Shown piece after piece: positions 9,266 to 30,400 of a stretch of DNA of 64,000 nt. The stretch is from assembly GCA_027489035.1 (NCBI GenBank), contig JAIYAN010000024.1:1-64000 (forward strand), read 5' to 3'. The translations under genes were made by a program, and so were the position numbers. The notes under the pieces are model-generated. The model had not been told where the DNA came from and did not search any database. It was given only the letters and a program-made list of their open reading frames with translations. The first letter of the stretch is position 1. Every line of letters begins with the position of its first letter. The stretch is from Chitinophagaceae bacterium (lineage in GTDB: Bacteria > Bacteroidota > Bacteroidia > Chitinophagales > Chitinophagaceae).

Positions 9266-9364
9266 AAAATCTATTAACACCAATTGAAATTTATTTCAAA
9301 AACATCCAAATTGGCTGAGCGATTGTATGGGATATCCACGTTAATAATAAAAAATCCAAATACT

Positions 9365-9538: not shown

Positions 9539-9562
9539 AATAGAAACTCTAAACCAAAGAAA

Positions 9563-9691: not shown

Positions 9692-9694
9692 TTA

Positions 9695-9943: not shown

Positions 9944-9995
9944 TTTTTTATTTTTAAATTGTTAGCAATTTTTTTCTTTTTCGAAATATTCAGTT

Positions 9996-10661: not shown

Positions 10662-10673
10662 TTTATTCTTAAG

Positions 10674-11012: not shown

Positions 11013-11252
11013 GTTGACAAAGATAATTACTTTAGCGTAACATACATAATAAACTTAGGTATAAGTCCATTATTCTTAATTTTTGAGTTTTGTAAATCGA
11101 TAATATGATACAAGTATTCTTAAAGATTCCAATAATGAAGTAATAAAAAAAGACTAACAAAAAAATCACACAACTATATTTCAAATTTTATTACCCCACA
11201 TTAAACCCGTAATATTCCGTATTTTGCAACTATGTACTTGAATATTTAATTA

Positions 11253-13724
11253 ATGGACAAAAAGAGTTTATCAGAACGCGACATTTGCACAAAGTTTATT
11301 ACTCCTGCGGTTGAAAAATCGGGGTGGAATATGCACACGCAGCTATTAGAAGAAGTGTCTTTTACGGATGGTAAAATTTATGTTAGAGGTAAATTAACTG
11401 CTCGTGGTACACAGAAACGTGCCGATTATATTCTTTATTACAAGCCGAATATTCCAATTGCGATTATCGAAGCAAAAGACAATAAGCATTCTGTAAGAGC
11501 TGGAATTCAACAGGCTTTAGATTATGCCAAAATACTTGATATTCCATGTGTGTTTAGCAGCAATGGTGACGGATTTTTATTTCACGACAGAACTGCTACA
11601 GATGGTAATATTGAAACAGAATTGGATATAGATAGCTTCCCAACACCGGAACAACTTTGGGAACGCTATAAAAAGTATAAGGGAATTGAAACGCCAGAAT
11701 CCGAAAAAATAGCAATTCAAGATTATTACTTTGATGGTACAAGCCGAAAACCAAGATACTATCAACAAATTGCCGTAAACAGAACAGTTGAAGCAATTGC
11801 AAACGGTCAAAGTCGAATACTGCTTGTTATGGCGACTGGTACTGGAAAAACTTATACGGCTTTTCAAATAATTTACAGACTATGGAAATCAAGAAGTAAA
11901 AAAAGAATTTTATTTCTCGCAGATAGAACAGCTTTGATTGACCAAACAAGAAAAGGAGACTTCAAGCATTTTAAAGATAAAATGACTATCATCAAAAAGA
12001 AAGTGGTTTCTACTAAAGATGGTAAGGATGAATTGGTATCGAATAAAAAAAGAGGGATTGATTCAGAAGATAAAGCTTATGAAGTTTTTCTTGGATTGTA
12101 TCAAGGATTAACCAACAATGAACCAGGAATTGAAGATGCTTTCAAAGATTTTTCACCTGACTTTTTTGACTTAATTGTAATTGATGAGTGCCACAGGGGA
12201 AGTGCAAAAGAAGACAGCTCGTGGCGTGAAATATTATCCTATTTCAATAAAGCTACCCATATTGGTTTAACTGCCACTCCAAAAGAAACTAAAGAAACAA
12301 GCAATACCGAATATTTTGGCGAACCTGTTTATACCTATTCCTTGAAGCAAGGTATCGACGATGGATTTCTTGCACCTTATCGTGTAGTTAGAGTAGGCTT
12401 AAATGTTGATGCTGAAGGCTGGCGACCCAATCAAGGCAAAACAGATAAAGATGGTAATCCTGTTGAAGATAGAATTTATAACCGTAAAGATTTTGATCGA
12501 AATTTAGTAATAGAAGAGCGAACAGAATTGGTTGCTAAAAAACTAACCGAGTTTTTAAAAGGTTACGACCGTCTTGCAAAAACTATCGTCTTTTGTGTAG
12601 ATATTGACCACGCTGAAAGAATGCGAACAGCTTTGGCTAAACAAAATGCCGACCTTGTTGCAGAAAATTACAAATACATCATGCAGATTACTGGTGACAA
12701 TGATGAAGGGAAACGTGAATTAGATAATTTCATAAACCCCGAAGAAAAATATCCAGTAATAGCTACAACTTCCGAATTGATGACTACTGGAGTTGATGCA
12801 CAAACCTGTAAAGTAATTGTGTTGGATGCCAATATCAATTCAATGACCAAGTTCAAACAAATTATTGGACGTGGTACGCGTATTAATGAAGAGTTTGGCA
12901 AAATGTATTTTACCATTCTTGATTTTAGAAATGCAACAGACTTGTTTGCGGATAAAGATTTCGATGGCGACCCAATTCGTGTAAAACCAGTTGCAGAAGA
13001 TGAAGATTTATCATTGGTAGTAATTGAAGAAGAAGAAAATACAGTAACCGTTTTAGACCAAGAATCAGGTGAAGAAATAAAGTTTGATAAAGTCAAAATA
13101 AGATACCCAGGTGGTTCAGATTTAAATGGAAATTGGTTAGCAAGAGACCCTAAACAACCCAGAGAAAAGGTATATGTAAATGGAGTAGATGTGTCTGTTT
13201 TGGTAAGCCGTGAAATGTATTTCGATCAGCATGGAAAACCAATAACAACAAGTTTAAAAGACCATACCAAAGAAATCATTAAAGAAAACTTTGCTTCGCT
13301 TGATGAATTTTTAAATAAATGGAACACTACCGACCGCAAAGAAGCCATCATAGCAGAATTGCAAGAACAAGGTGTAATGGTGGAAGCTTTGTATGATGCC
13401 GTAAACAAAGAAGTTGATTTGTTCGATTTGATTTGTCACGTAGCTTTTGACCAACCACCATTAACAAGAAAAGAAAGAGCTAACAATGTGAAAAAGCGAA
13501 ACTACTTTACAAAATATGGCGACCAAGCCAAAAAAGTTTTGGAAGCATTATTAGACAAGTATTCAGATGAAGGAATCACAAATATTGAAAGCATTGAAGT
13601 ATTGAGAATAAATCCATTTGATGCATTTGGTTCACCAGTTGAGATTATCAACGAATTTGGAAGCAAAGAAAAATATTTACAAGCCGTAAAAGAATTAGAA
13701 TTTGAATTATACAAATCAGCATAA
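11253..13724 (+). CDS. hsdR: Type I restriction enzyme, R subunit
   Basis: The 823-residue product is an ATP-driven translocase and nuclease. The N-terminal endonuclease domain shows the D...ExK nuclease triad (Asp58 in RADYIL; Glu73 and Lys75 in IIEAKD). The SF2 motor follows: Walker A ATGTGKT at 194-200, DECH box 311-314, TATP 340-343, and motif VI QIIGRGTRI near 540. The C-terminal part resembles the EcoAI/EcoEI-type R subunit that docks onto MTase. It is the first gene of the operon and shares one base (ATAATG) with the next gene, so translation is coupled. The frame is intact throughout, so the system is probably active. Confidence 0.93.
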   Translation: MDKKSLSERDICTKFITPAVEKSGWNMHTQLLEEVSFTDGKIYVRGKLTARGTQKRADYILYYKPNIPIAIIEAKDNKHSVRAGIQQALDYAKILDIPCVFSSNGDGFLFHDRTATDGNIETELDIDSFPTPEQLWERYKKYKGIETPESEKIAIQDYYFDGTSRKPRYYQQIAVNRTVEAIANGQSRILLVMATGTGKTYTAFQIIYRLWKSRSKKRILFLADRTALIDQTRKGDFKHFKDKMTIIKKKVVSTKDGKDELVSNKKRGIDSEDKAYEVFLGLYQGLTNNEPGIEDAFKDFSPDFFDLIVIDECHRGSAKEDSSWREILSYFNKATHIGLTATPKETKETSNTEYFGEPVYTYSLKQGIDDGFLAPYRVVRVGLNVDAEGWRPNQGKTDKDGNPVEDRIYNRKDFDRNLVIEERTELVAKKLTEFLKGYDRLAKTIVFCVDIDHAERMRTALAKQNADLVAENYKYIMQITGDNDEGKRELDNFINPEEKYPVIATTSELMTTGVDAQTCKVIVLDANINSMTKFKQIIGRGTRINEEFGKMYFTILDFRNATDLFADKDFDGDPIRVKPVAEDEDLSLVVIEEEENTVTVLDQESGEEIKFDKVKIRYPGGSDLNGNWLARDPKQPREKVYVNGVDVSVLVSREMYFDQHGKPITTSLKDHTKEIIKENFASLDEFLNKWNTTDRKEAIIAELQEQGVMVEALYDAVNKEVDLFDLICHVAFDQPPLTRKERANNVKKRNYFTKYGDQAKKVLEALLDKYSDEGITNIESIEVLRINPFDAFGSPVEIINEFGSKEKYLQAVKELEFELYKSA

Positions 13725-17542: not shown

Positions 17543-18712
17543 ATGAAAATAACATTACCTAATTTGGATTTCCCTGTTATGAAAGCGCCCAACCTGACTC
17601 CAAAAACATTTGACAAGTATGAAGAAATCAATCGTTTAATAATTGTTGGTAATGGCTTCGATTTGGCACATGGTTTAAAGTCCAGTTTCAAAGATTTTAT
17701 ATACGACTACAGTTTAAAAATAATAAAACGTGTTGTTTTAGGTTTGAAGTATGATGACATTTTAGTTTCAATTACTGCGAATGCTCAATTTTCAGATGCT
17801 GAAACTTTTCTTGGCAAGCTGTCTCCAGAAGAGGCGTTTATTACATTTATGAACTTATCAAATCATCCACACATCAATAAGCCAATTTGGAAATCCAAAT
17901 TTTTCAAATCAATCATCTCAGATTTACAAAACAAAAAATGGGTAGATATTGAGGTTGGATATTTTGACCAACTAAAAGATAAAAACCTACTTAATAATGA
18001 GCAGGAAGTTAAAGTTCTAAATGAAGAATTTGCATACATAAAAACATGTTTTATATCCTATTTGAAAGAAGAGGTAAATAAAATTATTTTTACAACCAAT
18101 CCTGATTTATTAGCCCAATTTTTACAACCAATTAAAATTCCTGAAGCAAGGCCAAACACAATTGAAAAGGAAATGCTGCCACTTAAAACTTGTATTTTAA
18201 ATTTCAATTACACCTCTATAGCATCTTTGTATGGTCAAGGACTTAATTCATCTGCATATAATTACATTCCGATACACGGTCAACTTCAAATAGACGAAAC
18301 TTCTTCGCAAGAACCAGTTTTTGGGTTTGGAGATGAAATGGATGAGGATTACATAAAATTTGAGTTATTAAGAAACGACGATGTTTTTCAACACATAAAG
18401 TCGTTTAAGTATTTACAATATAATCATTACCGAAATCTAATTGAATTTATAGAAAGTAATCCTTTTCAGGTTCAGATTTTTGGTCACTCATGTGGATTAT
18501 CTGATCGAACATTATTGAATACAATTTTTGAACATGAAAATTGTATATCAATAAAACCATTTTATTATGAAAATGATGGCTCAAATGATTATGAACAAAA
18601 AAGCTATTCTATTGCTCGTCATTTTAAATCAAAGTCTGAACTTCGAGTAAAGGTGGTCAATAAAGAATATTGTGAAGCTATGGTTCAACCAATTGCTATT
18701 CAATCGAAGTAA
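17543..18712 (+). CDS. abiH: AbiH-family abortive infection protein
   Basis: The 389-residue product shows the AbiH hallmark near the N-terminus, LIIVGNGFDLAHGLKSSF (GNGFD at 36-40), a central LNFNYTSIASLYG, then YIPIHGQL with VFGFGDEMDEDY, and a C-terminal QIFGHSCGLSDRTLL. AbiH proteins are phage-defence factors whose mechanism is poorly known; the GNGFD motif is thought to bind a nucleotide. It starts 11 bp after hsdS, so it is probably transcribed with the restriction operon, a common arrangement in defence islands. Confidence 0.85.
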   Translation: MKITLPNLDFPVMKAPNLTPKTFDKYEEINRLIIVGNGFDLAHGLKSSFKDFIYDYSLKIIKRVVLGLKYDDILVSITANAQFSDAETFLGKLSPEEAFITFMNLSNHPHINKPIWKSKFFKSIISDLQNKKWVDIEVGYFDQLKDKNLLNNEQEVKVLNEEFAYIKTCFISYLKEEVNKIIFTTNPDLLAQFLQPIKIPEARPNTIEKEMLPLKTCILNFNYTSIASLYGQGLNSSAYNYIPIHGQLQIDETSSQEPVFGFGDEMDEDYIKFELLRNDDVFQHIKSFKYLQYNHYRNLIEFIESNPFQVQIFGHSCGLSDRTLLNTIFEHENCISIKPFYYENDGSNDYEQKSYSIARHFKSKSELRVKVVNKEYCEAMVQPIAIQSK

Positions 18713-18900
18713 TAATCTATAAATAATACCAACAATTCAAATTAGATTTTAAAAAATTGAAATGACAGAACAATACGAAATTTGGTTTACTACACTCGCA
18801 AAGGACAGAGAAAACTTATATTATCTTAAGAATTTTCAAGACGATTTTTATCACTAAAGAAGTTGTTTATTTTAAAGCAAATAAATATTATTAAAGAATA

Positions 18901-19086
18901 CTGCCAATATTCTTTAATTAATTCTTACGCATTAGCATTTCCTAATTCTCAAACGTTACTTAAATTTAAATATCCAATATTATTTTTGATTTAAGGCGAT
19001 TTTACAAAACCTCTATTATATGAAGCATTAGCATTTTGAGGATTTATTTCAATAGCTTTGTTATTATCTGCGTTAGCATGTAGAAC
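18901..19086 (-). pseudogene. Decayed tetratricopeptide-repeat (TPR) gene
   Basis: The 427-bp gap after abiH is not empty. The minus strand reads, in a single frame, ANADNNKAIEINPQNANASY then NRG, a clear TPR consensus (KAIEINP...A..YNRG). After a stop it continues NIGYLNLSN, stop, ELGNANA, stop, ELIKEYWQ. The last piece is the usual closing helix of Bacteroidota TPR proteins (ELGNA.AQELI..YC). Three in-frame stops and shortened helices show that it is a relic. The rest of the gap (18713-18900 and 19087-19139) holds nothing else that I can support. Confidence 0.65.
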
Positions 19087-19139
19087 ACTCGAAATCAATT
19101 ATTTTTTGTTGAAACATTTCTTAATATAAATAAAATGAT

Positions 19140-20135
19140 ATGGCATTTATTTTAAAAAAACATTTATTTATAATCGCACTTTTCGCTTTGCTTTTTTTCT
19201 CAAATAACGTTTTTGCGCAAAGTTATAGAGGTCTGATTTCTCAAACGTTTATGCAGATTGCAGAAAAAGGCAATGTGATAAAAACAAATAAGCCGTTGAT
19301 AATTATATATAATCGAAATTATTGTAGTTTATATATTGGGGACAAAATCTCTTATTTCCCTGTAGAATCCTATTCAACAAGTATAAAGGAAGGGAATATT
19401 GAAGAAAGTTTTCTAAGTGGGGAAACATCAACCACAACATTTGGCTGGTATTTGATTAGAATATTGCATAATAATAATGGAGAGAGTGACATAACTATAA
19501 ATTTACCATCCATACCAGGAGGTGCTGCATATTTTGTTCAAAAAGCCAAAATTTATTCCGAAAATGGAAAGGTTAGCGGTAAGGTATTTGTGAATAATTG
19601 GGAACAGCTAAACAAAGATTTTAACTATAATGACAGTCTACATAAAATCAATGAGAAAAGAAAACTAGACGAACTGGCAAAAGCAAAATACGATGATTCC
19701 GTAAAAATTGCTTCAAAGGAAAAGGAAAAAAAAGAGAAGGAAGAAAGGAATAAAATAATTCTTGAAGAAAAATTAAACACTGGTAATAATGAATATGTTT
19801 TTAAATCTCGAGATGCTCAAAGCTATTTAACAAAAAAGATTGATTCTGCTGTTAGTGTGAACATAAGGCATATTTCTAAAATCGGGAAAATAAAGCTATA
19901 CATAAATCGAAATGGAAATATTGATTCTTGTACTAATGTCTATCCTTTTGAAAGCTACATTTCCAAAATTAATGAGATTGTAATGGGATTGAATTTAAAG
20001 GTTGCCCCTTTTTCAATAGATGGAAAAGCATACCATTCTTATGCAATAGTTGATTTAATGATCGATGAATACTTTTATGAAAACAATAAAAATCAAAATA
20101 AAAAATCAAAAGGATTAGGGGTAATGGGCTGGTAG
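19140..20135 (+). CDS. Secreted protein with coiled coil and possible TonB-C-like end
   Basis: The 331-residue product has a signal peptide (LFIIALFALLFFSNNVFAQ). Residues 30-160 form an unrecognised domain. A strongly charged coiled coil follows (KRKLDELAKAKYDDSVKIA, then KEKEKKEKEERN). The C-terminal 100 residues (IGKIKLYINRNGNIDSC... and AYHSYAIVDLMID) resemble a TonB C-terminal-type alpha/beta domain in which a short strand precedes an N.NG.ID turn; this is a tentative match. It stands alone between the restriction island and the convergent STAS/GHKL operon. Confidence 0.55.
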   Translation: MAFILKKHLFIIALFALLFFSNNVFAQSYRGLISQTFMQIAEKGNVIKTNKPLIIIYNRNYCSLYIGDKISYFPVESYSTSIKEGNIEESFLSGETSTTTFGWYLIRILHNNNGESDITINLPSIPGGAAYFVQKAKIYSENGKVSGKVFVNNWEQLNKDFNYNDSLHKINEKRKLDELAKAKYDDSVKIASKEKEKKEKEERNKIILEEKLNTGNNEYVFKSRDAQSYLTKKIDSAVSVNIRHISKIGKIKLYINRNGNIDSCTNVYPFESYISKINEIVMGLNLKVAPFSIDGKAYHSYAIVDLMIDEYFYENNKNQNKKSKGLGVMGW

Positions 20136-20386
20136 AAGGATTGCTAAAACTGAGTTTGCCGGTTATTCACCATCTTAACTCGGTAGGAGTCCAATCGAAA
20201 GCTATTTGTTTTTTGTTTCAACTTTGTATTGTCTGATTCATAATTGTGCCAACGTTTTGCAGTTACAAAAAGTTGGCGATTTTCGGAGATGAAAACTCAC
20301 GGCCACCAATGAACTTGAGACGAAGCATAAAGCTTCATTTAGCCACTGTATCGCCATTTTCTTGTAGGTGCTGGCGGTAGGTTTTC
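20136..20386. other. Non-coding spacer with a 28-nt hairpin between convergent genes
   Basis: No ORF is supported here. At 20249-20276 the arms CCAACGTTTTG and CAAAAAGTTGG pair at 10 of 11 positions around CAGTTA. The rest is unusually GC-rich for the window and continues into the stop of the minus-strand gene at 20387 (TAGGTTTTCTCATTTTCGG). From memory, similar spacers flank accessory genes in other Bacteroidota, but I cannot verify this. It could be a bidirectional terminator or a recombination-associated cassette boundary. Confidence 0.35.
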
Positions 20387-20995
20387 TCATTTTCGGTTTA
20401 TTTTCATTGCAAGTTGAAAAATTAATTTGTCAAAGTCAATGGAAGCTGCTTCTATTTTTCCTATTTTCTCAAGTCTAAGTGTTTGTATACCGTCCTTGGT
20501 TGCTTGATTTGCTCTTGAATTTGCAGTCCTTGGCGTATCTGTAAAAAGCTCCCAAATCTCTGATATTTTCTGCCTGATTTTGGAAGCTGTTTCGTCATTG
20601 TTTGCTATTATACTATTTTCCTCAGCAAGTGCCAAGATTGAGTTTACTCTAGTCCGAAGTGTTTTAAAGCAGGAATTTGTAAGTGGCGTTTCAAAATCTT
20701 CACATTCTAAAAGTTTATTGGTTTTTGTATTATATTCCAATTGAAAGTCTTTCAGATAGTTAATTATTAACTCCTTCTCCGATTTTTCTTGGTCGTTCTT
20801 TTTTGACAGAGTTCTGGTTATATAAATTGCAAGAAATATATTAACTCCAATAGATAATATTTCCATAGGGTTTATCTCAAAACTTACATCATTGGCAAAG
20901 TAGAGATTTGAATATTTTTTGAAAATTATAATAAAAATTACACCTGCTCCAAATCCAAATATGGATGCAATAGCGCTCTTATTGTCTTTCTGCAT
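20387..20995 (-). CDS. Two-span membrane protein of the STAS/GHKL operon
   Basis: The frame is open from 21022, but the ATG at 20995 (MQKDNKSAIASIFGFGAG) overlaps the upstream gene by only 17 bp and begins just before the first membrane segment, so it is preferred; the product is 202 residues. Two membrane segments (IASIFGFGAGVIFIIIF and EILSIGVNIFLAIYIT) are followed by a cytoplasmic helical domain of about 140 residues with many Glu/Lys and a central cysteine pair. The family is not recognised. The overlap with the STAS-like gene indicates that the three proteins are made together, perhaps as a membrane-bound effector or sensor. Confidence 0.6.
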   Translation of the reverse strand: MQKDNKSAIASIFGFGAGVIFIIIFKKYSNLYFANDVSFEINPMEILSIGVNIFLAIYITRTLSKKNDQEKSEKELIINYLKDFQLEYNTKTNKLLECEDFETPLTNSCFKTLRTRVNSILALAEENSIIANNDETASKIRQKISEIWELFTDTPRTANSRANQATKDGIQTLRLEKIGKIEAASIDFDKLIFQLAMKINRK

Positions 20996-21311
20996 CTTGT
21001 ATATATTGTTTAATATCGTCAATTAAATAATCCTCTTCTTCAGATTTGAAGTCAAGTAGACTTAACACCTGCTGTTTTCCATATGTCCTTGCAAGTCCAC
21101 CAAAAACCTCCTCAAGCCAAGAAGTTCCATAGCCAATTGTGCCATCAAGGTCCACATGGATTTTTTGGCTACTAGACATTGCTATTTTAAAATTCGGTTC
21201 GAGAATATCTTCTCTGAATTCTTGCCCTGAATGTGCCTTTTTCCCCTCATCCCTGTAACGAGAACCGGGTGTTTTAGAAAAGTCACAAACTCTAATTTTT
21301 ATGCTATCCAT
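20979..21311 (-). CDS. STAS-like (DUF4325) protein
   Basis: The frame is open from 21344; the ATG at 21311 (MDSIKIRVCDFSKTPGSRYR) is preferred, as it overlaps the upstream gene by 13 bp. The 110-residue product has the DUF4325 features: a GxRYRxEG-like start, EFREDILEPNF, the central strand KIHVDLDGTIGYGTSWLEEV with the conserved YGTSWLEE, and FGGLARTYG. Proteins of this type are STAS-like partners of GHKL ATPases, resembling the SpoIIAA/SpoIIAB anti-anti-sigma pairs. Here the ATPase is the gene directly upstream. Confidence 0.75.
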   Translation of the reverse strand: MDSIKIRVCDFSKTPGSRYRDEGKKAHSGQEFREDILEPNFKIAMSSSQKIHVDLDGTIGYGTSWLEEVFGGLARTYGKQQVLSLLDFKSEEEDYLIDDIKQYIQDAERQ

Positions 21312-22381
21312 TTTATGTTGATATTTTTTTCGTTTAACTCCCAAGTAACAAAAGTTCCACTAAATTCTTCTTTCAATTTGACATATTTGTTATTACTTAC
21401 ATCAGCAAATACATTATTACTGATTACTTTTAGGTTGCTTATTTGGTTTCGTGATAAAACTTCTCTAATCCCAGGCAATCCCTTTCCTCTAAAATGTTGA
21501 CCTGTCACTGTTAAGTGCATTTGTCCTTCTAAAAGCAACTTAAATATCTCGTCATTATCACCATGTATCAATCTATTTTTTATTTTTTCAAACCAACCAA
21601 ACCATTTATTGTCGTTGGGTTTATGTTTTAAACTTTCAAAGATGCCAACACCATAATCAATAAAAATAAATGAAACCTTTTTGTTTGGGTTGTCGTGATT
21701 AACTGATAACCACCAATGTTTTTCCCCTTTTTTGTTAATATCAGCGTGATTATTTGTGTTTTGCATTAATTCAAGTATGGTCCTTTGAAGCCCTTTGCAA
21801 GTTCGTCTCTCACCCCAAATAGTAGTAGACGCTTCTGCCATTACCAAATAGCCAAGTTCCGAATTCACTTCCTTGTTTGCCCTTGTAAATATTTGATTTT
21901 CTTTTCCTAAAGCGTATTCAAGTTTTTGTCCTATTGGTTTATTCAAATATTTAAAAAAGTCTGAGTTAATTAATAGTTTCGCTAAATCGTCATTCCGAGG
22001 AAAGTTACCATTAAATTTTATGTTTCGTGTCTTAAATGAAAACATTACTGAAACCAAAATGGTCACCGCAGAATAATCCAAATAAGTGATGTCTTTTAGA
22101 TTAATAAAAACGCTAGAATTATTAAGATACAATCTTTCGAGTTTATTAATGAACTTGATGGTTTCTTCAGGTTTTTCAATAAACGAAAAATGTTTGGGGG
22201 CAGTTATTTTAGTATAATCTGAAATTAATTTCTCTTCCTGTCTTAACTCCTTGCTCTTACCTTGTCCATTGAAGTTTTTGCTTATGCCTTTCTGTTTTGA
22301 TAAAATTCGTCTCTTCAAAAGTCTTTTTGCTCGACTTTTGTTTCGTTTTTTATATCTTGATGTAGTGTATAATTTCTTCAA
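21299..22381 (-). CDS. STAS domain fused to GHKL (HATPase) ATP-binding protein
   Basis: The 360-residue product starts with a very basic tail (about 20 of the first 45 residues Lys/Arg). Residues 65-130 look STAS-like (SVFINLKDITYLDYSAVTIL). Residues 195-355 hold a GHKL ATPase: N-box ELMQNTNNHA (Glu204, Asn208, His212), G1 box DYGVGI (242-247), G2 box RGKGLPGI (298-305), and a final SGTFVTWEL strand. Such ATPases include histidine kinases and anti-sigma kinases; there is no phosphoacceptor His domain here, so a SpoIIAB-like or switch function fits better. It is the first gene of a tight three-gene operon. Confidence 0.75.
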   Translation of the reverse strand: MKKLYTTSRYKKRNKSRAKRLLKRRILSKQKGISKNFNGQGKSKELRQEEKLISDYTKITAPKHFSFIEKPEETIKFINKLERLYLNNSSVFINLKDITYLDYSAVTILVSVMFSFKTRNIKFNGNFPRNDDLAKLLINSDFFKYLNKPIGQKLEYALGKENQIFTRANKEVNSELGYLVMAEASTTIWGERRTCKGLQRTILELMQNTNNHADINKKGEKHWWLSVNHDNPNKKVSFIFIDYGVGIFESLKHKPNDNKWFGWFEKIKNRLIHGDNDEIFKLLLEGQMHLTVTGQHFRGKGLPGIREVLSRNQISNLKVISNNVFADVSNNKYVKLKEEFSGTFVTWELNEKNINIKWIA

Positions 22382-22734
22382 TTATCGTCATTTTAAACTT
22401 ACCGCCAACTATCTTATCTCCAAAATACATTTCGCCTCCCCAACTCAAACATAACACATTTTTATAAATAGACGATATAAGTCGGGATAAATAATGCGGA
22501 TAATTTGATGTGCATTGTCTAATGATTTCCAAGTCCTCCAGAGCCTCCCAAAAGTTCGAAATTTGATAGATAAAAAATCTGTTTAAGAAATTTATCTAAT
22601 CATTGCAGTCACTATTTTTTGATTAGAGTGTAAGGGCATAGATTAACAATGATTGGAAATTTATGGTAATAGTCTTTTTTGGTGAGCCATATATCTACTT
22701 TTTCTCCAACAACAGAAATAATACCTTTTATCAT
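22350..22734 (-). other. Two short open frames upstream of the GHKL gene, possible gene remnants
   Basis: On the minus strand, 22612-22734 encodes a 40-residue ATG-started frame (MIKGIISVVGEKVDIWLTKK...). A second frame, open from 22595 to its stop at 22350 without an ATG, reads FWEALEDLEIIRQCTSNY and later LCLSWGGEMYFGDKIVGGKF; it could start at the TTG at 22532 and overlaps the GHKL gene by 32 bp. Both look protein-like but are short, so they may be pieces of one broken gene or a leader peptide. I see nothing else between 22735 and 22788. Confidence 0.25.
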
Positions 22735-22788
22735 CGGTCGAAAAATTTCAGCCAACTACGCTAATTAGAATAACTTGTCATTATGAGT

Positions 22789-23091
22789 TTATCTCCTGCC
22801 ATTAAAATTTTCTTGCTCTTTTTCTTTTTTGGCTTTAAACTTTTTTATTGCATAAACCGCAACTCCCACCACAGCTATACCCCAAAGTAAGTGCCAGATT
22901 GTAAAACCCTTCTTCGATTGGGGCACAGCAATTACGGGTGGGGGTGGTGGTATTTCGGGAATTATAGGTGTATGAATAACGCTTTCAACTACTTCTATTA
23001 CTGGCGGAGGGGCCACGGGTAACTCAGGTGCGTTTCTTAAAGCATTCAAATAATCAACTTTATCTGATAATATCTCTTTTATAACTTCCAT
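22789..23091 (-). CDS. Proline-rich single-span membrane protein
   Basis: The 100-residue product has a short helical N-terminus, a long Pro/Val/Ile-rich stretch (PELPVAPPPVIEVVESV, then IPEIPPPPPVIAVP), one membrane segment (IWHLLWGIAVVGVAVYAI, about 69-86) and a basic charged tail. The proline rod may span or extend from the membrane. It overlaps the zinc-ribbon gene by 13 bp and is surely co-transcribed with it. I do not recognise the family. Confidence 0.55.
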   Translation of the reverse strand: MEVIKEILSDKVDYLNALRNAPELPVAPPPVIEVVESVIHTPIIPEIPPPPPVIAVPQSKKGFTIWHLLWGIAVVGVAVYAIKKFKAKKEKEQENFNGRR

Positions 23092-23438
23092 ATTTTAACG
23101 GTTTGGTTTGTGAATAATACATAGGCGTAGCGTATCAACTTTTTCGCTTGGATATGCTCAATAGTTATTAATTCGGAGTAGGTATCCCATACAAAACCAC
23201 GGTCTATAAATACCTTTGCGGAAAAAGGTTTTGAGCCATACAAACCATAGGTTTCATTTGCCGTATTGTCAAGAAACAATAGGATTTTTTGAAGGGTTTT
23301 GTTTCTGTTTTTTTCTGCTGCTACAACGCTCTTGTTGTAATCGTAGCATTCATCACTGCAATAAACGGTATTGCCGTTTTTATCTTCTGGTAGTTCGCCG
23401 TCACAGATGGGGCAAAATCTTAGTGTTTTTTTCTTCAT
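23079..23438 (-). CDS. Small zinc-ribbon protein
   Basis: The 119-residue product opens with a four-cysteine zinc ribbon (FCPICDGELPEDKNGNTVYC, then SDEC), a form common in small nucleic-acid-binding or adaptor proteins. A helical middle (AAEKNRNKTLQKILLFLDNT) and a beta-rich end (FIDRGFVWDTYSELITIEHI) follow. It is the first gene of a two-gene unit with the proline-rich membrane protein. Its promoter region has a -7-like box (TATCTTTG, 23456-23463) and, further upstream, the TTCGTA half-site array, so it is probably tightly regulated. Confidence 0.55.
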   Translation of the reverse strand: MKKKTLRFCPICDGELPEDKNGNTVYCSDECYDYNKSVVAAEKNRNKTLQKILLFLDNTANETYGLYGSKPFSAKVFIDRGFVWDTYSELITIEHIQAKKLIRYAYVLFTNQTVKIWKL

Positions 23439-23455
23439 TTCTTTGGATTTAGAAA

Positions 23456-23482
23456 CAAAGATAAAATCGATATTTAAACAAA
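23456..23482 (-). promoter_or_regulatory. Promoter-like boxes before the zinc-ribbon gene
   Basis: Read on the minus strand, a TTTG box (23479-23482) is followed after 15 bases by TATCTTTG (23456-23463), which fits the Bacteroidota -33/-7 pair apart from short spacing (19 is usual). The -7 box ends 17 bases before the start codon. Confidence 0.4.
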
Positions 23483-23511
23483 ACCCTTTACTGTATTGAT
23501 TTTCAGGAGAA

Positions 23512-23561
23512 TTCGTATACTAATATACGAACCATTCGTACATTTTTGTACGAATTCGTAC
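23512..23561. promoter_or_regulatory. Array of TTCGTA half-sites, probable operator
   Basis: Five half-sites TTCGTA/TACGAA lie in 50 bp. Two make perfect palindromes: TTCGTATA and TATACGAA around CTAA (23512-23531), and ATTCGTAC and GTACGAAT around six bases (23534-23555). A single half-site TTCGTAC follows at 23555-23561. The forward half-sites start 23 and 20 bp apart, about two helix turns, so a regulator could bind along one face. The array lies just upstream of the promoter-like boxes of the zinc-ribbon gene and after the stop side of the gene ending at 23591. Confidence 0.6.
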
Positions 23562-23590
23562 ATTATGGAGTTTATGACGCCAAAAGATAT

Positions 23591-24628
23591 TTAAATACCT
23601 TCCTCAGGTAGATATTTATCCCAAGGAATTTTGATTTTAGTACTCCTTTCGCCACTCATATTTGATGCGATATTATACATCCCTTTTTCAGAAAAAAGGG
23701 CCTTCTCATATTCCTTTAGATAGCATGCAAAAAATAAAACATAATCGCGCTTATTTTTGCCGCTATGTTTCAGATAAAGTAAATGTATTGCATGGTCAAT
23801 TGTTTTTGTTGGGAATTTTTTGTTTGTATTTAGTCTAAATTTTTCTACAGGAATTTCCTTTGGTATTACTAGACCATTTGCAAAAATTTTATTAACGGTC
23901 TTTTCATCTAAAAAAGGAATTCGATCATCAAATTTTTCGTGGTATAAAAAGGAAAAAAAATGTCGAATTTGCTCATCTGTTAACTTCCCAGGAATTTTAA
24001 ATCCTTTTCTGCTTTCAATATATTTTTTAAATTCAATCTCTTCTTTTTCTGTATTTGGGCTTTTCTTTTTTTCAGGTTTTTCAACGACTATTTCCTCTTT
24101 TGAGTCAGATTTTCTATCTATCCATTTTTCTATTTCTTCGTTGAAGTTTGGCGGTAAAAGATAGAAATTGCCGTCAATTGATAGCAATTCTTGTAAAAAG
24201 TCGTCCAAAGATTGCTCGTCACCGTAAAAATTATCATAAACCTGAAAACTCAAAAATTCATTAATTGGAAGACCATTAGATTTAAGTTCTCCAATTTTTA
24301 AAGAAAATAAAATGCGGAATGTTTCCTCATTCGTATTCTCTCTGAAGATGTAGAGAATTTTTTCCAAATCATAAAAAGCTCCATCATTTTCAAAAAAATC
24401 CAGAATATACGTTCCATCCCATTCCGCATTTATTCTTGCATATTTTTCATAATTGCTATTATATTCTCCTTCGTGTGGTGGATTCAAAAAAGGTTTAGTC
24501 TCTGAATCAAGAACAGCTTTTTTAATGTGGGTATAAATTTCTCTTGCATTGTAGTTAACGATAGTATTTTGCCTTAATTGATCATTCACAAATTGAACGA
24601 TTGAGCTGATTTCTATGTGATAATCCAT
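23591..24628 (-). CDS. Unrecognised protein downstream of abiEii
   Basis: The 345-residue product matches no family that I know. The N-terminal 165 residues are acidic with a regular strand/helix pattern (EISSIVQFVNDQLRQNTIV, YILDFFENDGAFYDLEKI). A Lys/Glu-rich linker follows (SKEEIVVEKPEKKKSPNTEK), then a C-terminal helical domain of about 130 residues (LTDEQIRHFFSFLYHEKF, DHAIHLLYLKHSGKNKRDYV). It starts 28 bp after abiEii on the same strand, so it is probably the third gene of the abiE operon. Its role is unknown. Confidence 0.6.
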   Translation of the reverse strand: MDYHIEISSIVQFVNDQLRQNTIVNYNAREIYTHIKKAVLDSETKPFLNPPHEGEYNSNYEKYARINAEWDGTYILDFFENDGAFYDLEKILYIFRENTNEETFRILFSLKIGELKSNGLPINEFLSFQVYDNFYGDEQSLDDFLQELLSIDGNFYLLPPNFNEEIEKWIDRKSDSKEEIVVEKPEKKKSPNTEKEEIEFKKYIESRKGFKIPGKLTDEQIRHFFSFLYHEKFDDRIPFLDEKTVNKIFANGLVIPKEIPVEKFRLNTNKKFPTKTIDHAIHLLYLKHSGKNKRDYVLFFACYLKEYEKALFSEKGMYNIASNMSGERSTKIKIPWDKYLPEEGI

Positions 24629-24656
24629 CTTTTTAATTTTTACTTATGTTTCTATG

Positions 24657-25460
24657 TTAGATTTTTAATTTTTTCAAGTGTCTATTTACTTCCCTTTCTA
24701 CTTGTTCAAAATCTGGCAATTCTTTTATTTGGTCCTGTAACGAACTTTTCCAGCGTGCTTTATATTGAGGGATTCTTTCGGTCATCTTTTTGTTAAAATC
24801 AACCGCATTTATATTTTTGCTGTTGCATTTTGTTTTGAACTCCGCGTTGTAAAAATCAATATCCATTCCGTGTTGTTCCAGTAAATACCAAATGTCATAA
24901 TAGTCTCGCGCCTGCATCCTTTGCATTACAGAACGCATTTTTTCAACCAATACTTCTTCAAGCGGGTAACACAATAATTGATGGTCTTCCATATCAGAAT
25001 AACCAATAAACGCACTTTTCATTATTGGCGCAAAAACCAATTGCTCACTTCTGGATATATCTACCTTTACACTTTTGTTGTTTCCTTGTCCGCCAAGTGG
25101 ACCTACATAGCTGATGTAAAAATTGATGCCGCCATCTTCATGCTCATTATTATCAATAATATCCAAAGGAATGTTTGCTTCTTCTTTCACATATGCAAAT
25201 GTTTCTCTGAATAAAGAAAATATGAGTTCATTGGTTGTATAATTATCCAGCAATGTAAAATCCAGGTCTTCGGAAAAACGGTAGTCTTCAAAATATATTT
25301 TCTTTAAAACAGTTCCACCTTTAAACACAATTAATTTTGATAATTCTTTGTGCTGAGCAATTCCTTTTAATATCCAGGAAAGCACATAATCTTTTTCAAT
25401 TTGTTGGTCACGCACTTCGGCATTTCTTGCCTTTTGCTGTATTTCGGATGGCTTTATCAT
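24657..25460 (-). CDS. abiEii: AbiEii-type nucleotidyltransferase toxin
   Basis: The 267-residue product carries the nucleotidyltransferase signature of AbiEii/AbiGii toxins near residues 45-70: VFKGGTVLKKIYF (GG motif) followed by RFSEDLDFTLL with the metal-binding SEDLDF. Further on, VEKMRSVMQRMQARDYYDIW is the conserved KMxA..R..RDYYDIW block. Family members are type IV toxin-antitoxin toxins; related MenT enzymes add nucleotides to tRNA. The start overlaps the end of abiEi by 4 bp, the usual antitoxin-first order. Confidence 0.88.
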   Translation of the reverse strand: MIKPSEIQQKARNAEVRDQQIEKDYVLSWILKGIAQHKELSKLIVFKGGTVLKKIYFEDYRFSEDLDFTLLDNYTTNELIFSLFRETFAYVKEEANIPLDIIDNNEHEDGGINFYISYVGPLGGQGNNKSVKVDISRSEQLVFAPIMKSAFIGYSDMEDHQLLCYPLEEVLVEKMRSVMQRMQARDYYDIWYLLEQHGMDIDFYNAEFKTKCNSKNINAVDFNKKMTERIPQYKARWKSSLQDQIKELPDFEQVEREVNRHLKKLKI

Positions 25461-26278
25461 GTAATGATGGCATTTAGTATGGTATCAGTATCTATATTTT
25501 TTTGTACACTCCAACGAGCATTTCTTTTTCCTTCTTTAGGCAGTTCTGTGTCGAGCACAACATAAGATGCTGTTTTTATTTTTTGTAGTTTTTCTATGAT
25601 TGGATTTTCTATTTTCAATAATTCCAATAAAAAACCCAATCTCTTTATTACAGCTTGTGAGCCAAATTTTATTGTGTATTCTAAAAGTGTATCAAAGTTG
25701 ATTTTTGTCTTGGATGCATAAATAGCTTTTGCCACCTCAACAATCCCTCCGGCATATTCGGGTTTAAACAAACAATCAACAATCGTCTTTTCCAAATCAG
25801 AACAAAGCACTTTATTAAAACTATCTATCCATATTTTCTTCGAACCAAAAAAATGTGTTGCGTTGTGATACACAAATTGAAAGGAGACATTTTTAATTTT
25901 CAACTCCGCGGGTTTAATTTGCTTTGACACAACTATTTGTTCTTTCAGTGATGGTTGTGTTATCAGATTATGAATCTGTAAGGCAGAATAATAACCGATA
26001 TAATATTTTGCATTGTTTACTAAATGCTCGGCTAATAAATGCCAGTCAGGCATAAACTTACTTGACTCGGCTTCATATGGAATAATATAAAAAACACCTT
26101 CTTTAATACGCATCAACAATCCTCTTTTCGACATATCACTCAACAACTCACGCACGGTATTGGTTTTTGAGTTAGGCAGTGCCTGATATGCTTGGTTATT
26201 GTCAAAGCAAACCTGGTTCTTACCGTTAAAGTAGGTAAGCAGTTCATTTGATTGTTTTGATATTAACTTATCTTTCAT
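25457..26278 (-). CDS. abiEi: AbiEi-type antitoxin
   Basis: The frame is open from 26317; the ATG at 26278 (MKDKLISKQSNELLTYFNGK) is preferred, because it lies just downstream of the operator-like palindrome and removes a 13-residue extension. The 273-residue product has an N-terminal winged helix (TVRELLSDMSKRGLLMRIKE, GVFYIIPYE) and a C-terminal domain with HNATHFFGSKKIW and the SDLEKTIVDCLFKPEY motif that marks AbiEi proteins. It represses its own promoter and neutralises the partner toxin without direct binding in studied cases. Confidence 0.85.
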   Translation of the reverse strand: MKDKLISKQSNELLTYFNGKNQVCFDNNQAYQALPNSKTNTVRELLSDMSKRGLLMRIKEGVFYIIPYEAESSKFMPDWHLLAEHLVNNAKYYIGYYSALQIHNLITQPSLKEQIVVSKQIKPAELKIKNVSFQFVYHNATHFFGSKKIWIDSFNKVLCSDLEKTIVDCLFKPEYAGGIVEVAKAIYASKTKINFDTLLEYTIKFGSQAVIKRLGFLLELLKIENPIIEKLQKIKTASYVVLDTELPKEGKRNARWSVQKNIDTDTILNAIIT

Positions 26279-26286
26279 AGTTGATT

Positions 26287-26305
26287 TGTCAGATTTGAAC
26301 TGACA
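26287..26305. promoter_or_regulatory. Palindrome before abiEi, probable autoregulatory operator
   Basis: TGTCAG and CTGACA form a perfect 6-bp inverted repeat with a 7-base centre, 8 bp upstream of the abiEi start. Characterised AbiEi antitoxins bind inverted repeats in their own promoter region, so this is the expected site; only one such repeat is obvious here. Confidence 0.5.
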
Positions 26306-26400
26306 ATAAAGATACAAATAATAATTTAATTTGAGTATTCTTGTACTTAAAGTTTATTCGAATCATCCAATTCCCCCCTCGATAGCAATCACTTTCAAAC

Positions 26401-27395
26401 TTTGACGTTTGGCCGTATCCAGTTTACTTACGCTCCTAAATAAATATACTGAGTAGATCGAAATCGTAAAATGGAAAAAACTGCCAATCAATTTTTCGAA
26501 GATTGGATTTCCCAAATGGGTAATATTAAACGAAAAACCAGCAATAATATTCAGCTCATTTCGAACCCGTGAAATTGCAACTATTACCTATTGATTTTTC
26601 GACATTTTGTAGCTCAAAAAGGTAAATTATTTTCCTAAAACCCTGAAAATATATTCGGAGTGCATCAAATTAATAAAATGAAAAAAACTGCCTTGGATTT
26701 TTCGACGTTCTGGTGCTCAAAAGGGTAAATTAATTCACGTAAACTCAGCAAAAATATCCGGAACGCATCTAATTATTAAAATGAAAAAAACTGCCTTTTA
26801 TTTTTCGACTTTTTGGAGCTCAAAAAGGTAAATTAATTCACGAAAAACCTGAAAAAATATCCTGAGTACATCGAAATCATAAAATGGAAAAAACTGCCAA
26901 TCAATTTTTCGAAGATTGGATTTCCAAAATGGGTAATATTTCACGAAAAGCCTCCAATAATATTCAGCGCATTTCGAATCCGTGAAATTGCAACTATTAC
27001 CTATTGATTTTTCGACATTCTGGTGCTCAAAAGGGTAAATTAATTCACGTAAAACCTGAAAAAATATCCTGAGTAAATCGAAATCGAAAACTGCCTATCA
27101 ATTTTTCGAAGATTGGATTTCCAAAATGGGTAATAATTCACGAAAAACCTGCAATAATATTCAGCGCATTTCGAACCCGTGAAATTGCAACTATTACCTA
27201 TTGATTTTTCGACATTTTGGAGCTCAAAAAGGTAAATTAATTCACATAAACCCAGCAAAAATATCCGAAGCGCATGTAATTCTTAAAATGGGAACAACTG
27301 CCTCTGATTATTCGACATTTGGGAGCTCAAAAAAGCATAATTTTTTTCAATAAAATCCGAGCATTTTTATTCTCTCTTTTTTAAAATAAACATTC
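26401..27395. repeat. Tandem array of about 103-bp repeats in two subtypes
   Basis: About nine monomers follow each other, marked by TTTTTCGA starts near 26493, 26595, 26698, 26801, 26904, 27007, 27102, 27204 and 27307, i.e. steps of 102-103 bp with one of 95. A degenerate monomer precedes (26401-26492). Subtype alpha continues GAAGATTGGATTTCC and ends AACTATTACCTATTGA; subtype beta continues GACATTTTGGAGCTC and ends AAAAAAACTGCC. The order is alpha, beta, beta, beta, alpha, beta, alpha, beta, partial beta. Two alpha copies contain TTCACG...CGTGAA inverted repeats. No gene is supported inside. Confidence 0.85.
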
Positions 27396-27439
27396 CTTGT
27401 TAAGCTTTAAATTTTTTTCCAGATTTGATTTTTGTTTCT

Positions 27440-27447
27440 TACATTTG
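27440..27447 (+). promoter_or_regulatory. TACATTTG -7-like box before the MerR-like gene
   Basis: It is an exact match to the Bacteroidota -7 consensus TAnnTTTG, but no TTTG lies 19 bases upstream. It ends 5 bases before the ATG at 27453, so transcription would begin at or near that ATG; either the message is leaderless or translation starts at the later ATG at 27498. Confidence 0.45.
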
Positions 27448-27452
27448 TCTAT

Positions 27453-28424
27453 ATGAATAGACGTAAAATTCTTACAAAGGAAGTAGATGCTTTAAACATG
27501 TCAAATGTAGAAAATCAACTTCTTGAAAACAGTCAAATGATTGCCGAGTTAATGGAAAAATTCTTTACCAGGGATTTATCTATTACAGATGCCAACATTG
27601 GTGTAGATAGAAAATTGCTTTATTCATGGAAAAAACATGAATTACTTCCATTCGCACAAAAGGAAAAGTCTTGGGGAAGATTCAGTTTCGTAGAAGTTTG
27701 CTGGTTGAAGTTATTATTGGAACTCCGGTCAGTTGGAGTAGGGTTAGACAAACTTCGTGAGGTTAAGGAATTCTTCTTTCCTAAAAATTTCGTGAACGAC
27801 TTTTTTACAAAATCCGAAACCGAATTTCCAAACAAAGAATTGGAAAAAGAAATTAAAGAGAAGATTGAATTTAAAGATGGGAAACCAGTTTTTGAAAATG
27901 AACATCTGGATATTTTAAAAGAAGCAAGCTTTTCACTTTTTACAAGCTTTTTATTGGCAACAATTTTAACCCGCAGTAATTATTGTATTTACATTGATTC
28001 AAACGGCAAAATTGATGCCTTAGAGCTCAATGCTTTATTAAATGACCCAATTGAAAATCTCCAGTCATTATTTGATCAATTGTCCAACAATACTGTTGTT
28101 TTCGTTAATCTTAAAAAAATAATTGCTGATTTATCCGGTACACATGAGCACTTTTCTAAGAATCTTGGTTTTGGAACTTTGATGTCAGAAAATTCAGTTT
28201 CGTCACTTAAAAATTTATTCTTAAGTAACCAGATTGACGAAATCACTATTAGAGTAAATCAAAGCGGAAGACCTACGGTTAGAATAAAAAAATATAAAAG
28301 TTTTGATCAGCTTAAAAAAGAAGTTGAAGGACTAAAAAAGAAAGGAACTTTCAAAGACATGCTTATTAAAACCAGAGACGGTAACATCCAATATTTCGAA
28401 CAAATTGAATTGGTAAAACTTTAA
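27453..28424 (+). CDS. MerR-like helix-turn-helix protein
   Basis: The product is 323 residues from the ATG at 27453; the ATG at 27498 (MSNVENQLLENSQ) is an alternative. Residues about 40-105 form a MerR-type winged helix: LSITDANIGVDRKLLYSWKK, then LLPFAQKEKSWGRFSFVEVC and LLLELRSVGVGLDKLREVKE. The remaining 200 residues are an unrecognised effector part (LQSLFDQLSNNTVVFVNLKK). It lies between the 103-bp repeat array and the recombinase genes on the same strand, so it may control excision or the repeat region (inference). Confidence 0.65.
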   Translation: MNRRKILTKEVDALNMSNVENQLLENSQMIAELMEKFFTRDLSITDANIGVDRKLLYSWKKHELLPFAQKEKSWGRFSFVEVCWLKLLLELRSVGVGLDKLREVKEFFFPKNFVNDFFTKSETEFPNKELEKEIKEKIEFKDGKPVFENEHLDILKEASFSLFTSFLLATILTRSNYCIYIDSNGKIDALELNALLNDPIENLQSLFDQLSNNTVVFVNLKKIIADLSGTHEHFSKNLGFGTLMSENSVSSLKNLFLSNQIDEITIRVNQSGRPTVRIKKYKSFDQLKKEVEGLKKKGTFKDMLIKTRDGNIQYFEQIELVKL

Positions 28425-28509: not shown

Positions 28510-28686
28510 ATGAGGGATTCTATAACAAAACATCGGATAAAAAACGAAACCACCGATGCGAAAAAACAAGAATTTGAATTAGAGAATAACCGAAATATCG
28601 CTACAATTGATGAGCAGCTTGATACGTTTGCTGATATCATCGTTGCATTATTACTAAAAGAAAATTACGATGATGAAAATGAATAA
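28510..28686 (+). CDS. Small acidic protein coupled to the recombinase, 58 residues
   Basis: It starts at an ATG (MRDSITKHRIKNETTDAKKQ) and ends DEQLDTFADIIVALLLKENY then DDENE. The last 17 bp overlap the beginning of the recombinase gene, so the two are translationally coupled. The product is a charged N-terminus followed by one amphipathic helix. Small genes in this position could be recombination directionality or accessory factors, but I recognise no family. Confidence 0.5.
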   Translation: MRDSITKHRIKNETTDAKKQEFELENNRNIATIDEQLDTFADIIVALLLKENYDDENE

Positions 28687-30400
28687 CAAATCTGCGCTGG
28701 AGGAATTAATGGCTAAAAGGCTTAACCCTGTTTCGAAAGTGGTGGCTCCACGAAACGGAAATGTTTGTTTTACTTACGATAGGGTATCGTCAAGAGACCA
28801 AATGGTAAACGGTAATAGTTTGGCTTGGCAATTCGAAAGATTGGATGAACATGCCTTAAAAAACAACTTAGTAATCAAAAATAGATATGGTGGAACTTAC
28901 GAATCTGCAAAAACGGATGAACGAAAAGAGTTCAAAAGAATGTTATCGGATATTGCGAAAGACAAATCCGTTTCTGCAATATTGATTTATAGTTACGACC
29001 GATTTTCGCGTTCTGGTGCAAATGGAATATTTCTGTTGGAGAATTTAAAGAAACTAGGTGTCAAGATTATCGCAGTCACACAGGAAGTAGATTCATTTAC
29101 ACCCACAGGAAGTTTTCAGGAAAACCTATACATGCTTTTAAGCAAACTCGATAATGATATGCGTCGGGATAAAAGTATATCGGGAACAAAGTCGATGATT
29201 AAAAAAGGATATTGGCCATATGCCACACCTCGCGGATACACTAATACGGTAAAGTATGCAACCGCAGACAAACATATCTATATTGTCAATGATGAGGGTA
29301 AAATGCTTCGCAGAGCCTTTGAATGGAAAGCATCGGGTAAATTCACCAATCAGCAAATTATCGACAAATTAGCGTTGAAAGGAATAGCAGTCACACTCCG
29401 TTACATTGCTTGGATTTTTGCGAATCCTTTTTATTGTGGGTATGTGTATAGTTCATTATTACCCGGCGAATTAATTCCCGGAAAACATCCAGCATTAATC
29501 AATGATGATACTTTTTTAAAAGCAAATAACATCAGTAAGCAAAATGCAATCAGCGGTGTACCAAAAAAATTAAATGTGGATGAATTACCATTGAAAGTTT
29601 TTGTGAGGGATATGTTTAGCAACTCTCCATTTACCGGCTATCAAAATAAAAAGAAAAAACTGTTTTATTACAAGACAAGAGATGCAGGAACCAATATCAA
29701 TATTTCAGCAAAAAAATTGAATAGCCATTTCGAAAAATTACTTCAGTCGTTTGAGTACGATAATTCGGGAAGGGAAAAATTAAAGACAATATTGAATCAA
29801 AAATTGTCACAGCATTTTGATGATAATAAAGTTGATGAGGTGGTAAATAAAAAACGTGTAACCGAATTACAAAACAACATTGATAAAATGGAGGAGCGTT
29901 TTGTTTTGAATGAAATCACGAAAGAGCAGTACGATAAATTCTCATCAAAATACAGAGATGAACTCGCTCAATTGAAGAAAGAAACGAAGACATATGCCGA
30001 GATGAGTTCGAACCTTGAAAAAGCAGTTGAAAAAGGTTTGAACATCGCTGAAAATATAAGCCAGTTATGGATTTCATCAGATTACTATGAGAAGCAACAA
30101 TTACAATACTTGGTGTTTCCGGAAGGAATGTTGTATGACAAGAAAAACGATACAGTTCGAACCATTAGAGTTAATACCTTGTTCCGTGAAATCGCAGTAC
30201 AGACAAGGGTTTTAGATGAAACAAAAAATGACAACCCGTTTTTGGATTGTCATTTTGGAAGTAATGTCGGGACGACTGGATTTGAACCAGCGACCACACG
30301 CCCCCCAGACGTGTGCGCTACCGGGCTGCGCTACGTCCCGAATCGATTGCGTGCAAATGTAATTTCATCATGCCAAATTTCAAAATCAATCGTCGAGTAA
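28670..30400 (+). CDS. Large serine recombinase (resolvase/integrase)
   Basis: The 576-residue product has a resolvase catalytic domain: FTYDRVSSRDQ with the nucleophile Ser40, and ILIYSYDRFSRSGANGIFLL with the DRxSR arginines. A Recombinase domain follows (KKGYWPYATPRGYT, FEWKASGKFTNQQIIDKLAL, AWIFANPFYCGYV), then a coiled coil (about 415-460). The zinc ribbon that normally lies between them is present in outline (DMFSNSPFTGYQ..KLFYYKT) but lacks its cysteines. Residues about 533-557 are antisense to the tRNA-Pro gene (TGFEPATTRPPDV), so the present C-terminus was created at the integration site. Confidence 0.88.
   Translation: MMKMNNKSALEELMAKRLNPVSKVVAPRNGNVCFTYDRVSSRDQMVNGNSLAWQFERLDEHALKNNLVIKNRYGGTYESAKTDERKEFKRMLSDIAKDKSVSAILIYSYDRFSRSGANGIFLLENLKKLGVKIIAVTQEVDSFTPTGSFQENLYMLLSKLDNDMRRDKSISGTKSMIKKGYWPYATPRGYTNTVKYATADKHIYIVNDEGKMLRRAFEWKASGKFTNQQIIDKLALKGIAVTLRYIAWIFANPFYCGYVYSSLLPGELIPGKHPALINDDTFLKANNISKQNAISGVPKKLNVDELPLKVFVRDMFSNSPFTGYQNKKKKLFYYKTRDAGTNINISAKKLNSHFEKLLQSFEYDNSGREKLKTILNQKLSQHFDDNKVDEVVNKKRVTELQNNIDKMEERFVLNEITKEQYDKFSSKYRDELAQLKKETKTYAEMSSNLEKAVEKGLNIAENISQLWISSDYYEKQQLQYLVFPEGMLYDKKNDTVRTIRVNTLFREIAVQTRVLDETKNDNPFLDCHFGSNVGTTGFEPATTRPPDVCATGLRYVPNRLRANVISSCQISKSIVE
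30267..30340 (-). tRNA. tRNA-Pro (anticodon GGG)
   Basis: The 74-nt cloverleaf reads: acceptor CGGGACG/CGTCCCG, D stem GCGC/GCGC, anticodon stem CACGT/GCGTG with loop CTGGGGG (anticodon GGG), T stem GCTGG/CCAGT with loop TTCAAAT, discriminator A; CCA is not encoded. The 3' end faces the recombinase gene, which overlaps it on the opposite strand, so the tRNA 3' part is the probable attachment site. The gene is intact, meaning integration restored its 3' end. Confidence 0.95.
30354..30384 (-). promoter_or_regulatory. Promoter of tRNA-Pro
   Basis: Read on the minus strand, TTTG (30381-30384) is followed after exactly 19 bases by TACATTTG (30354-30361), the canonical Bacteroidota -33/-7 pair. 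The -7 box ends 13 bases before the mature tRNA 5' end, so a short leader is expected. The promoter lies on the chromosome side, outside the integrated element. Confidence 0.75.

Follow-up and report, generated by a model that had tools for sequence, protein, structure and literature searches.

SCC elements (CcrB) are serine-recombinase cassette islands with varied cargo. Serine-recombinase islands carry defence and other cargo, and the control of their integrases is often unknown. According to the available sections of their description, the ssrA-specific islands of Dehalococcoides (DsiB) carry a CcrB-like serine recombinase (PMC3146451). At the level of DNA structure, the phasing of A-tracts at about 10-11 bp goes along with curvature, and genome-wide periodicity of this kind is described for prokaryotes in the available part of that report (PMC3940949). 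Intergenic tandem repeats of Planctomycetota are described, again in the part available, as variable, with slippage, regulation or recombination named as possible roles (PMC9426551). Both the island type and, for prokaryotes in general, phased A-tracts and curvature are therefore known already. Among the titles and abstract beginnings covered by our literature search, no array of the kind reported below was found in islands with a large serine recombinase (LSR), which does not prove its absence from print.

The locus was studied in a stretch of 64,000 nucleotides from a Chitinophagaceae bacterium (hereafter the window). Our tentative reading is that its tandem array may be an intrinsically curved, non-coding satellite, serving as the cis-region upstream of a MerR-like gene in some of the serine-recombinase islands that target tRNA-Pro. 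Computed for the array were the structure of its repeats, its constant position directly 5' of one MerR allele, the joint presence and absence of the two, the phasing of its A-tracts and its predicted curvature. The features of the locus are the following:

24634..26340, minus strand: cargo AbiEi/AbiEii block, right limit taken from the join in locus L129 (G051)
26402..26437, minus strand: roughly twelve codons similar to a tyrosine recombinase gene at its 3' end, truncated where the array begins
about 26436..27365, plus strand: tandem array of some nine units of about 103 bp after a partial unit tail (TRF, segmentation, profile)
26475..26577, plus strand: unit 1, alpha (segmentation, as for all units)
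26578..26680, plus strand: unit 2, beta
26681..26783, plus strand: unit 3, beta
26784..26887, plus strand: unit 4, beta
26888..26990, plus strand: unit 5, alpha, TTCACG...CGTGAA kept
26991..27084, plus strand: unit 6, beta, 94 bp
27085..27187, plus strand: unit 7, alpha, TTCACG...CGTGAA kept
27188..27290, plus strand: unit 8, beta
27291..27365, plus strand: unit 9, truncated beta'
27366..27452, plus strand: leader from the array to the MerR-like gene, with a TAnnTTTG-like presumed -7 box and the left half of GTCTATATGAATAGAC at its end
27453..28424, plus strand: MerR-like regulator, 323 aa (Pfam MerR_1)
28510..28686, plus strand: 58-aa ORF, present in all five islands compared
28670..30264, plus strand: LSR, the integrase (Pfam Resolvase and Recombinase)
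30266..30340, minus strand: tRNA-Pro(GGG), the target site, with the island junction at its 3' end (GTCGGGA)

TRF reported a period of 103 at 26593-27333 (7.3 copies) and one of 197 at 26477-27266 (3.9 copies, score 870). Segmentation by cuts at the TTTTTCGA anchor gave nine units with lengths of 103, 103, 103, 104, 103, 94, 103 and 103 bp plus a truncated last unit of 75 bp, and a profile of 19 units from three arrays placed a partial unit tail at 26436-26473. The nine monomers in the order alpha-beta-beta-beta-alpha-beta-alpha-beta-beta' that an earlier note had described were thus recovered, the subtypes being assigned by us from the identity table. Identity was 91-93% among the alpha units of the window, 75-87% among the beta units 2, 3, 4, 6 and 8, and 53-68% between alpha and beta, and unit 9 was 99% identical to the last unit of a second array, L009. 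The array that the earlier note had placed at 26401..27395 is real but slightly shorter, at about 26436-27365. The TTCACG...CGTGAA inverted repeats ascribed to two alpha copies are indeed present in two of the three alpha units of the window, but occur in only 3 of 24 units across the three arrays. We agree that the array is neither CRISPR nor coding: the units of about 103 bp are continuous and without spacers, which rules out a CRISPR array, and the sole ORF of at least 60 aa overlapping it is one of 72 aa on the minus strand.

The array sits between variable cargo, AbiE in this case, and a core formed by the MerR-like gene, the 58-aa ORF and the LSR; the MerR-like gene and the recombinase that the earlier note had placed after the array are both there as described. 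For the MerR-like protein, the match to Pfam MerR_1 has an E-value of 8.9e-4 and 19.8 bits, under the curated cut-off of 21.6, and a MerR_1 match at E<=0.1 was obtained for 8 of 18 MerR-like homologues. A profile of the 18 homologues matched solved MerR-family regulators with a best E-value of 4.9e-7. An AlphaFold model of the protein, made from three near-identical sequences, had a pLDDT of 42.7 and was set aside. The 58-aa ORF, which has a length of 59-60 aa in the third array-bearing island, L010, and overlaps the start of the LSR, gave no match in Pfam; as a guess, it could be a recombination directionality factor. The LSR is intact, with resolvase and recombinase domains. Its nearest NCBIfam families are XisF and CcrB, both far below cut-off; with an E-value of 3.9e-18 and 65.4 bits for CcrB against an equivalog cut-off of 900, SCC/CcrB membership was rejected.

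The end of the LSR abuts a tRNA gene in the window, in L009 (tRNA-Pro(TGG)) and in L010 (tRNA-Pro(GGG)). In a wider set of 20 loci, 19 had an LSR match and 17 of these 19 an antisense tRNA downstream (Pro, Leu, Arg, Met, Ala or Val), at a distance of up to about 90 bp in 16 of the 17 and of 441 bp in L077; downstream of the LSR of L070 and L071, no antisense tRNA was found. In L129 (G051), an AbiE block 96% identical to that of the window is joined directly to a 156-bp match to the LSR 3' end, at which the contig stops, and the window has array, MerR and LSR at this very point. The AbiE block, the core abutting tRNA-Pro and the L129 join make an integrative island at a tRNA gene, a known kind of island, the best reading of the whole locus. 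Neither this setting nor the phased A-tracts described below figured in the earlier note.

Several further observations concern the island and its relatives. The frame of the LSR has no stop ahead of tRNA-Pro and reads into the antisense strand of the latter (window 30240-30340), and the C-terminus of the integrase thus depends on the integration site. Defence-like cargo occupies 17543-26317 of the window, with an AbiH-like gene, the AbiEi/AbiEii pair and other genes between them. Other tandem repeats of the window, with periods of 124, 45, 27, 18, 14, 9 and 7 bp, lie at 47868-48223 and 49362-49429. L065 contains a tandem array with a period of 477 bp (9140-11265, 4.5 copies), about 4 kb from merR on the reverse strand, which is perhaps a coding repeat. 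Orphan LSR 3' ends of about 150-275 bp occur at L129:7382-7537 (at the contig end), L128:2421-2567 and L113:12250-12523; those of L129 and L128 start within 6 bp of each other, that of L113 further upstream. Such 3' ends of the LSR gene may serve non-autonomous cargo units as a right boundary. Finally, a site of about 45 bp, TTTGTCGGGATGATTACCGGGAGTTCGAACTTTTTGGAGGAT, which resembles the antisense tRNA-Pro 3' end and was found in 17 distinct copies, is present in L110, L111, L113, L114, L060, L061, L010, L129 and G000:C18 and C20 (L171-L176). Often preceded by a terminator-like hairpin, this site delimits small cargo units, among them AbiE and a pair that we read as toxin-antitoxin-like; such units are perhaps a cassette-like island system moved by the LSR.

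In its own genome, the array is present at one locus only. A search with the unit profile detected arrays in 3 of 90 genomes of the same genus, the own genome included, while 19 others yielded nothing beyond weak matches of 17-23 bits; among 396 genomes at the level of the order, the own array was the only one, and weak matches, at 20.7-25.1 bits, came from five other genomes, one of them with two matches and the rest with one each. Both searches used stricter filters, and the weak matches of 17-25 bits were taken as noise. A generic dispersed repeat is thereby ruled out. Of the very short matches in G035, G012 and G043, L004 and L006 looked unrelated by eye, and that of L005 falls on the tyrosine-recombinase-like 3' end at 26402-26437. 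No match was obtained for the array among phages by distant blastn, for MerR among plasmids by tblastn or for MerR in IMG/VR, all of them collections that may lack records close to the window's genome.

The other two arrays, L009 (G048) and L010 (G056), lie, as that of the window, directly upstream of the same MerR allele, the proteins being 99% and 96% identical, respectively, to that of the window, and the right edge of the array is fixed at about 87 bp before merR. Two sister islands, L060 and L061, have an LSR 96% and 91% identical to that of the window, but differ in the MerR-like protein, with about 45% identity, and an array of long units was found in neither. In blastn, their identity to the window sets in no earlier than the last ~87 bp of merR. 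Since the array is missing where the LSR is near-identical but MerR differs, array and MerR allele seem to move as a block, being exchanged jointly on the background of a shared LSR. In the wider set, a MerR-like gene is present in 16 of the 20 loci, and TRF found no array with units of more than 60 bp before it in any of the 16, the upstream sequence being short in some contigs; repeats with a short period (10-20 bp) occur near the gene in some loci, including L060 and L063.

The left edge is more variable. In all three islands, the adjoining gene to the left, on the minus strand, is N-terminally incomplete at or near this edge: the window shares at 26402-26437 a tyrosine-recombinase-like 3' end with L005, whose gene we read as such from its frame; the ORF left of the array in L009 (2624-3316) begins within a weakly matched Piwi domain (24.0 bits against a cut-off of 28.9); and in L010, the last ~35 residues remain of a small ORF that L060 has in full. 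Together with left flanks that differ between L009, L010 and the window at large scale, these clipped genes could indicate a recombination seam, i.e. that the array is a tolerant junction at which cargo is swapped against the MerR-LSR core. We consider such a seam quite improbable, since the array begins at a different unit phase in each of the three islands, islands without array vary in cargo as well, the two short pieces that L010 shares with the window (82 and 52 bp, window positions 22402 and 20322) lie away from the array, and no recombination intermediate was seen. As a possibility, a seam between cargo and core is compatible with the main readings and does not exclude them.

The earlier note had also proposed a repeated structured RNA, and this proposal was not supported. 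RNAalifold predicted no pairs over 19 of the 24 units, no Rfam match to the array was found at E-values up to 5, and, based on 20 shuffles each, the folding z-scores were 0.18 and 0.86 for the two strands of the window and 1.31 for the plus strand of L009. Short hairpins in alpha units and the plus strand of L010, which alone folded better than its 20 shuffles (z -2.48), speak for an array of structured RNAs, but with no conserved pairs and no folding excess in the window or L009 we rejected it and give it hardly any credence. Over 24-31 kb, Rfam matched tRNA-Pro and gave one sub-threshold match outside the array.

Similarly, the iteron-like look of the array and the fact that the island family does have attachment sites (17 distinct copies at other loci) would fit an array for partition, replication or attachment of the island. 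This reading is very improbable in our view: the core contains no recognisable rep or par gene, sister islands do without the array, and its likeness to an attachment-site arm (ATTACC...TTCGA...TTTTGGAG) lies within chance, as 68 of 300 shuffles were as good in the mean per unit; an origin of the array from attachment sites was dropped for this reason. For the best single alignment, 8 of 500 shuffles were as good in the window, 27 of 500 in L009 and 208 of 500 in L010. In the window itself, where the best match has an E-value of 0.69, no attachment-site copy was recognisable; as the window starts where its contig does, the opposite end of the island may lie outside.

The joint presence and absence of array and MerR allele, the MerR-type DNA-binding domain of the regulator and conserved words common to the units, such as the anchor used for segmentation, would also be expected for a sequence-specific binding array with one operator for the MerR-like protein in each unit. 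A site linked to the regulator, in line with the regulator-binding role put forward in the earlier note, has indirect support from this association, but no sequence-specific operator emerged. The TTCACG...CGTGAA dyad is confined to the few units mentioned above, and the units are mostly 15-50% different between arrays while the MerR protein is 96-99% identical across the islands. Moreover, the palindrome GTCTATATGAATAGAC, which is perfect in the window, L009 and L010 and imperfect in L060 and L061, spans the start codon of merR outside of the array and is the likely autoregulatory site. Operators in the units are thus improbable. The TAnnTTTG-like box at the end of the leader is presumably the -7 box of the Bacteroidetes promoter consensus. 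Within the array, no promoter matched the Bacteroidetes consensus exactly, and the idea of a promoter of this type in each unit was dropped; matches with one mismatch, counted without a control run, were mostly on the minus strand.

The arrays were analysed for the phasing of A-tracts and for curvature. Over the 19 full-length units, the A/T-tract amplitude at 10.0, 10.3 and 10.5 bp was higher than in 200 of 200 shuffles. In a wedge model, the predicted curvature over 103 bp was 70, 86 and 77 degrees in the three arrays compared to shuffle means of 43-48, and it exceeded all 200 shuffles in each array. As the units are related, shuffling each of them separately overstates the significance. The predicted curvature was also higher than in all 819 background blocks of 800 bp, which overlap by half and are mostly coding, for the three arrays, two wedge models and three window sizes of the calculation, and higher than in all 320 background blocks at GC<=34%. 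The combination of predicted curvature and A-tracts phased every 10-11 bp or so is a property of the arrays as a whole, the result for single units being mixed: the consensus unit gave a p-value of 0.009 with its tallest peak at 6.4 bp in a scan of 6-16 bp, two of eight single units tested were significant, and alpha and L010 units have few tracts.

Predicted curvature was also high in the 303 bp upstream of merR, which ranked within the top 0.4-3.1% among 3367 background blocks for all five islands of the clade, including the two without array. For the other loci, this region was in the top 5% in only 1 of 13 tested, and 12 of the 18 MerR-like loci tested were outside the top 5%. Shuffles of the own composition gave a weaker signal for these regions, with values as high in 9 (window), 27 (L009), 34 (L010), 25 (L060) and 3 (L061) of 300 shuffles each.

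The main and serious rival to curved DNA is a neutral satellite that grew through slippage and unequal crossing-over where the DNA is free of constraint and hitchhikes with the MerR-like gene, the A-tract phasing being inherited from the founder sequence. Accordingly, the number of units (9 in the window, 8 and 7 in the other islands) and their subtype vary between islands, and sister islands with a near-identical LSR do without the array. In addition, the array is more diverged than the neighbouring merR, as satellites are: the aligned part of the array differs by 22% between window and L009 and by 27% between window and L010, compared to 6.1% and 15.3% at the fourfold sites of merR. Part of this gap could be due to merR having been exchanged recently, and measured against the fourfold sites of the LSR (18.7% and 44.9%, respectively) the array is not clearly fast, being slightly more diverged in L009 and less diverged in L010. 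Against a neutral satellite, furthermore, the A-tract phasing was higher than in all 400 neutral simulations along the unit tree, which used a simple model rooted on the consensus and kept gaps fixed; each of the three arrays, diverged as they are, has an extreme predicted curvature; and the array is kept in all three islands with this MerR allele. On balance, we consider a purely neutral origin possible but somewhat unlikely.

If the curved-DNA reading that we tentatively prefer applies, the array would be bent DNA in front of the merR promoter, which a nucleoid-associated protein and/or the MerR-like protein could read, and this would set the expression of the merR-orf58-LSR core and hence integration or excision. 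The phase of the A-tracts would matter more than the exact sequence, so that units could be homogenised and replaced fast while the shape of the DNA persists. We infer every step from curvature to expression. A bolder version, which we regard as rather unlikely, would have the satellite under selection for DNA shape and not for sequence, and the control region swapped as a block with the MerR-like regulator, governing a cargo-collecting LSR at tRNA genes. If true, the locus would be a compact test case for whether curvature of the DNA, and not a motif, can be what is conserved in a bacterial control region, and for how mobile elements exchange a regulator along with its control region.

Compared to known systems, the locus resembles the intergenic repeats of Planctomycetota, as far as these are described in the available text, in being intergenic and variable, but is tied to one allele of one mobile element (PMC9426551). 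Unlike the genome-wide A-tract periodicity outlined in the available part of PMC3940949, it is a 0.9-kb satellite local to the core of one mobile element. With the Dehalococcoides ssrA islands, it shares a CcrB/XisF-type recombinase at the island end beside the 3' end of an RNA gene; for the island family, direct-repeat att sites, tandem accretion and islands without integration module are further likenesses, and the available sections of that report describe no such array (PMC3146451). It differs from these islands in its tRNA targets, its core of MerR-like gene, 58-aa ORF and LSR, and the curved satellite upstream. It is also similar to SCC as a serine-recombinase island with varied cargo whose LSR matches NCBIfam CcrB, but differs in the score of this match (65.4 bits against 900), the tRNA target, the single LSR in the core and the Chitinophagaceae-type host. 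A parallel for the exchange proposed here of array and MerR-like regulator is that of phage repressors and their operators, which are likewise swapped together.
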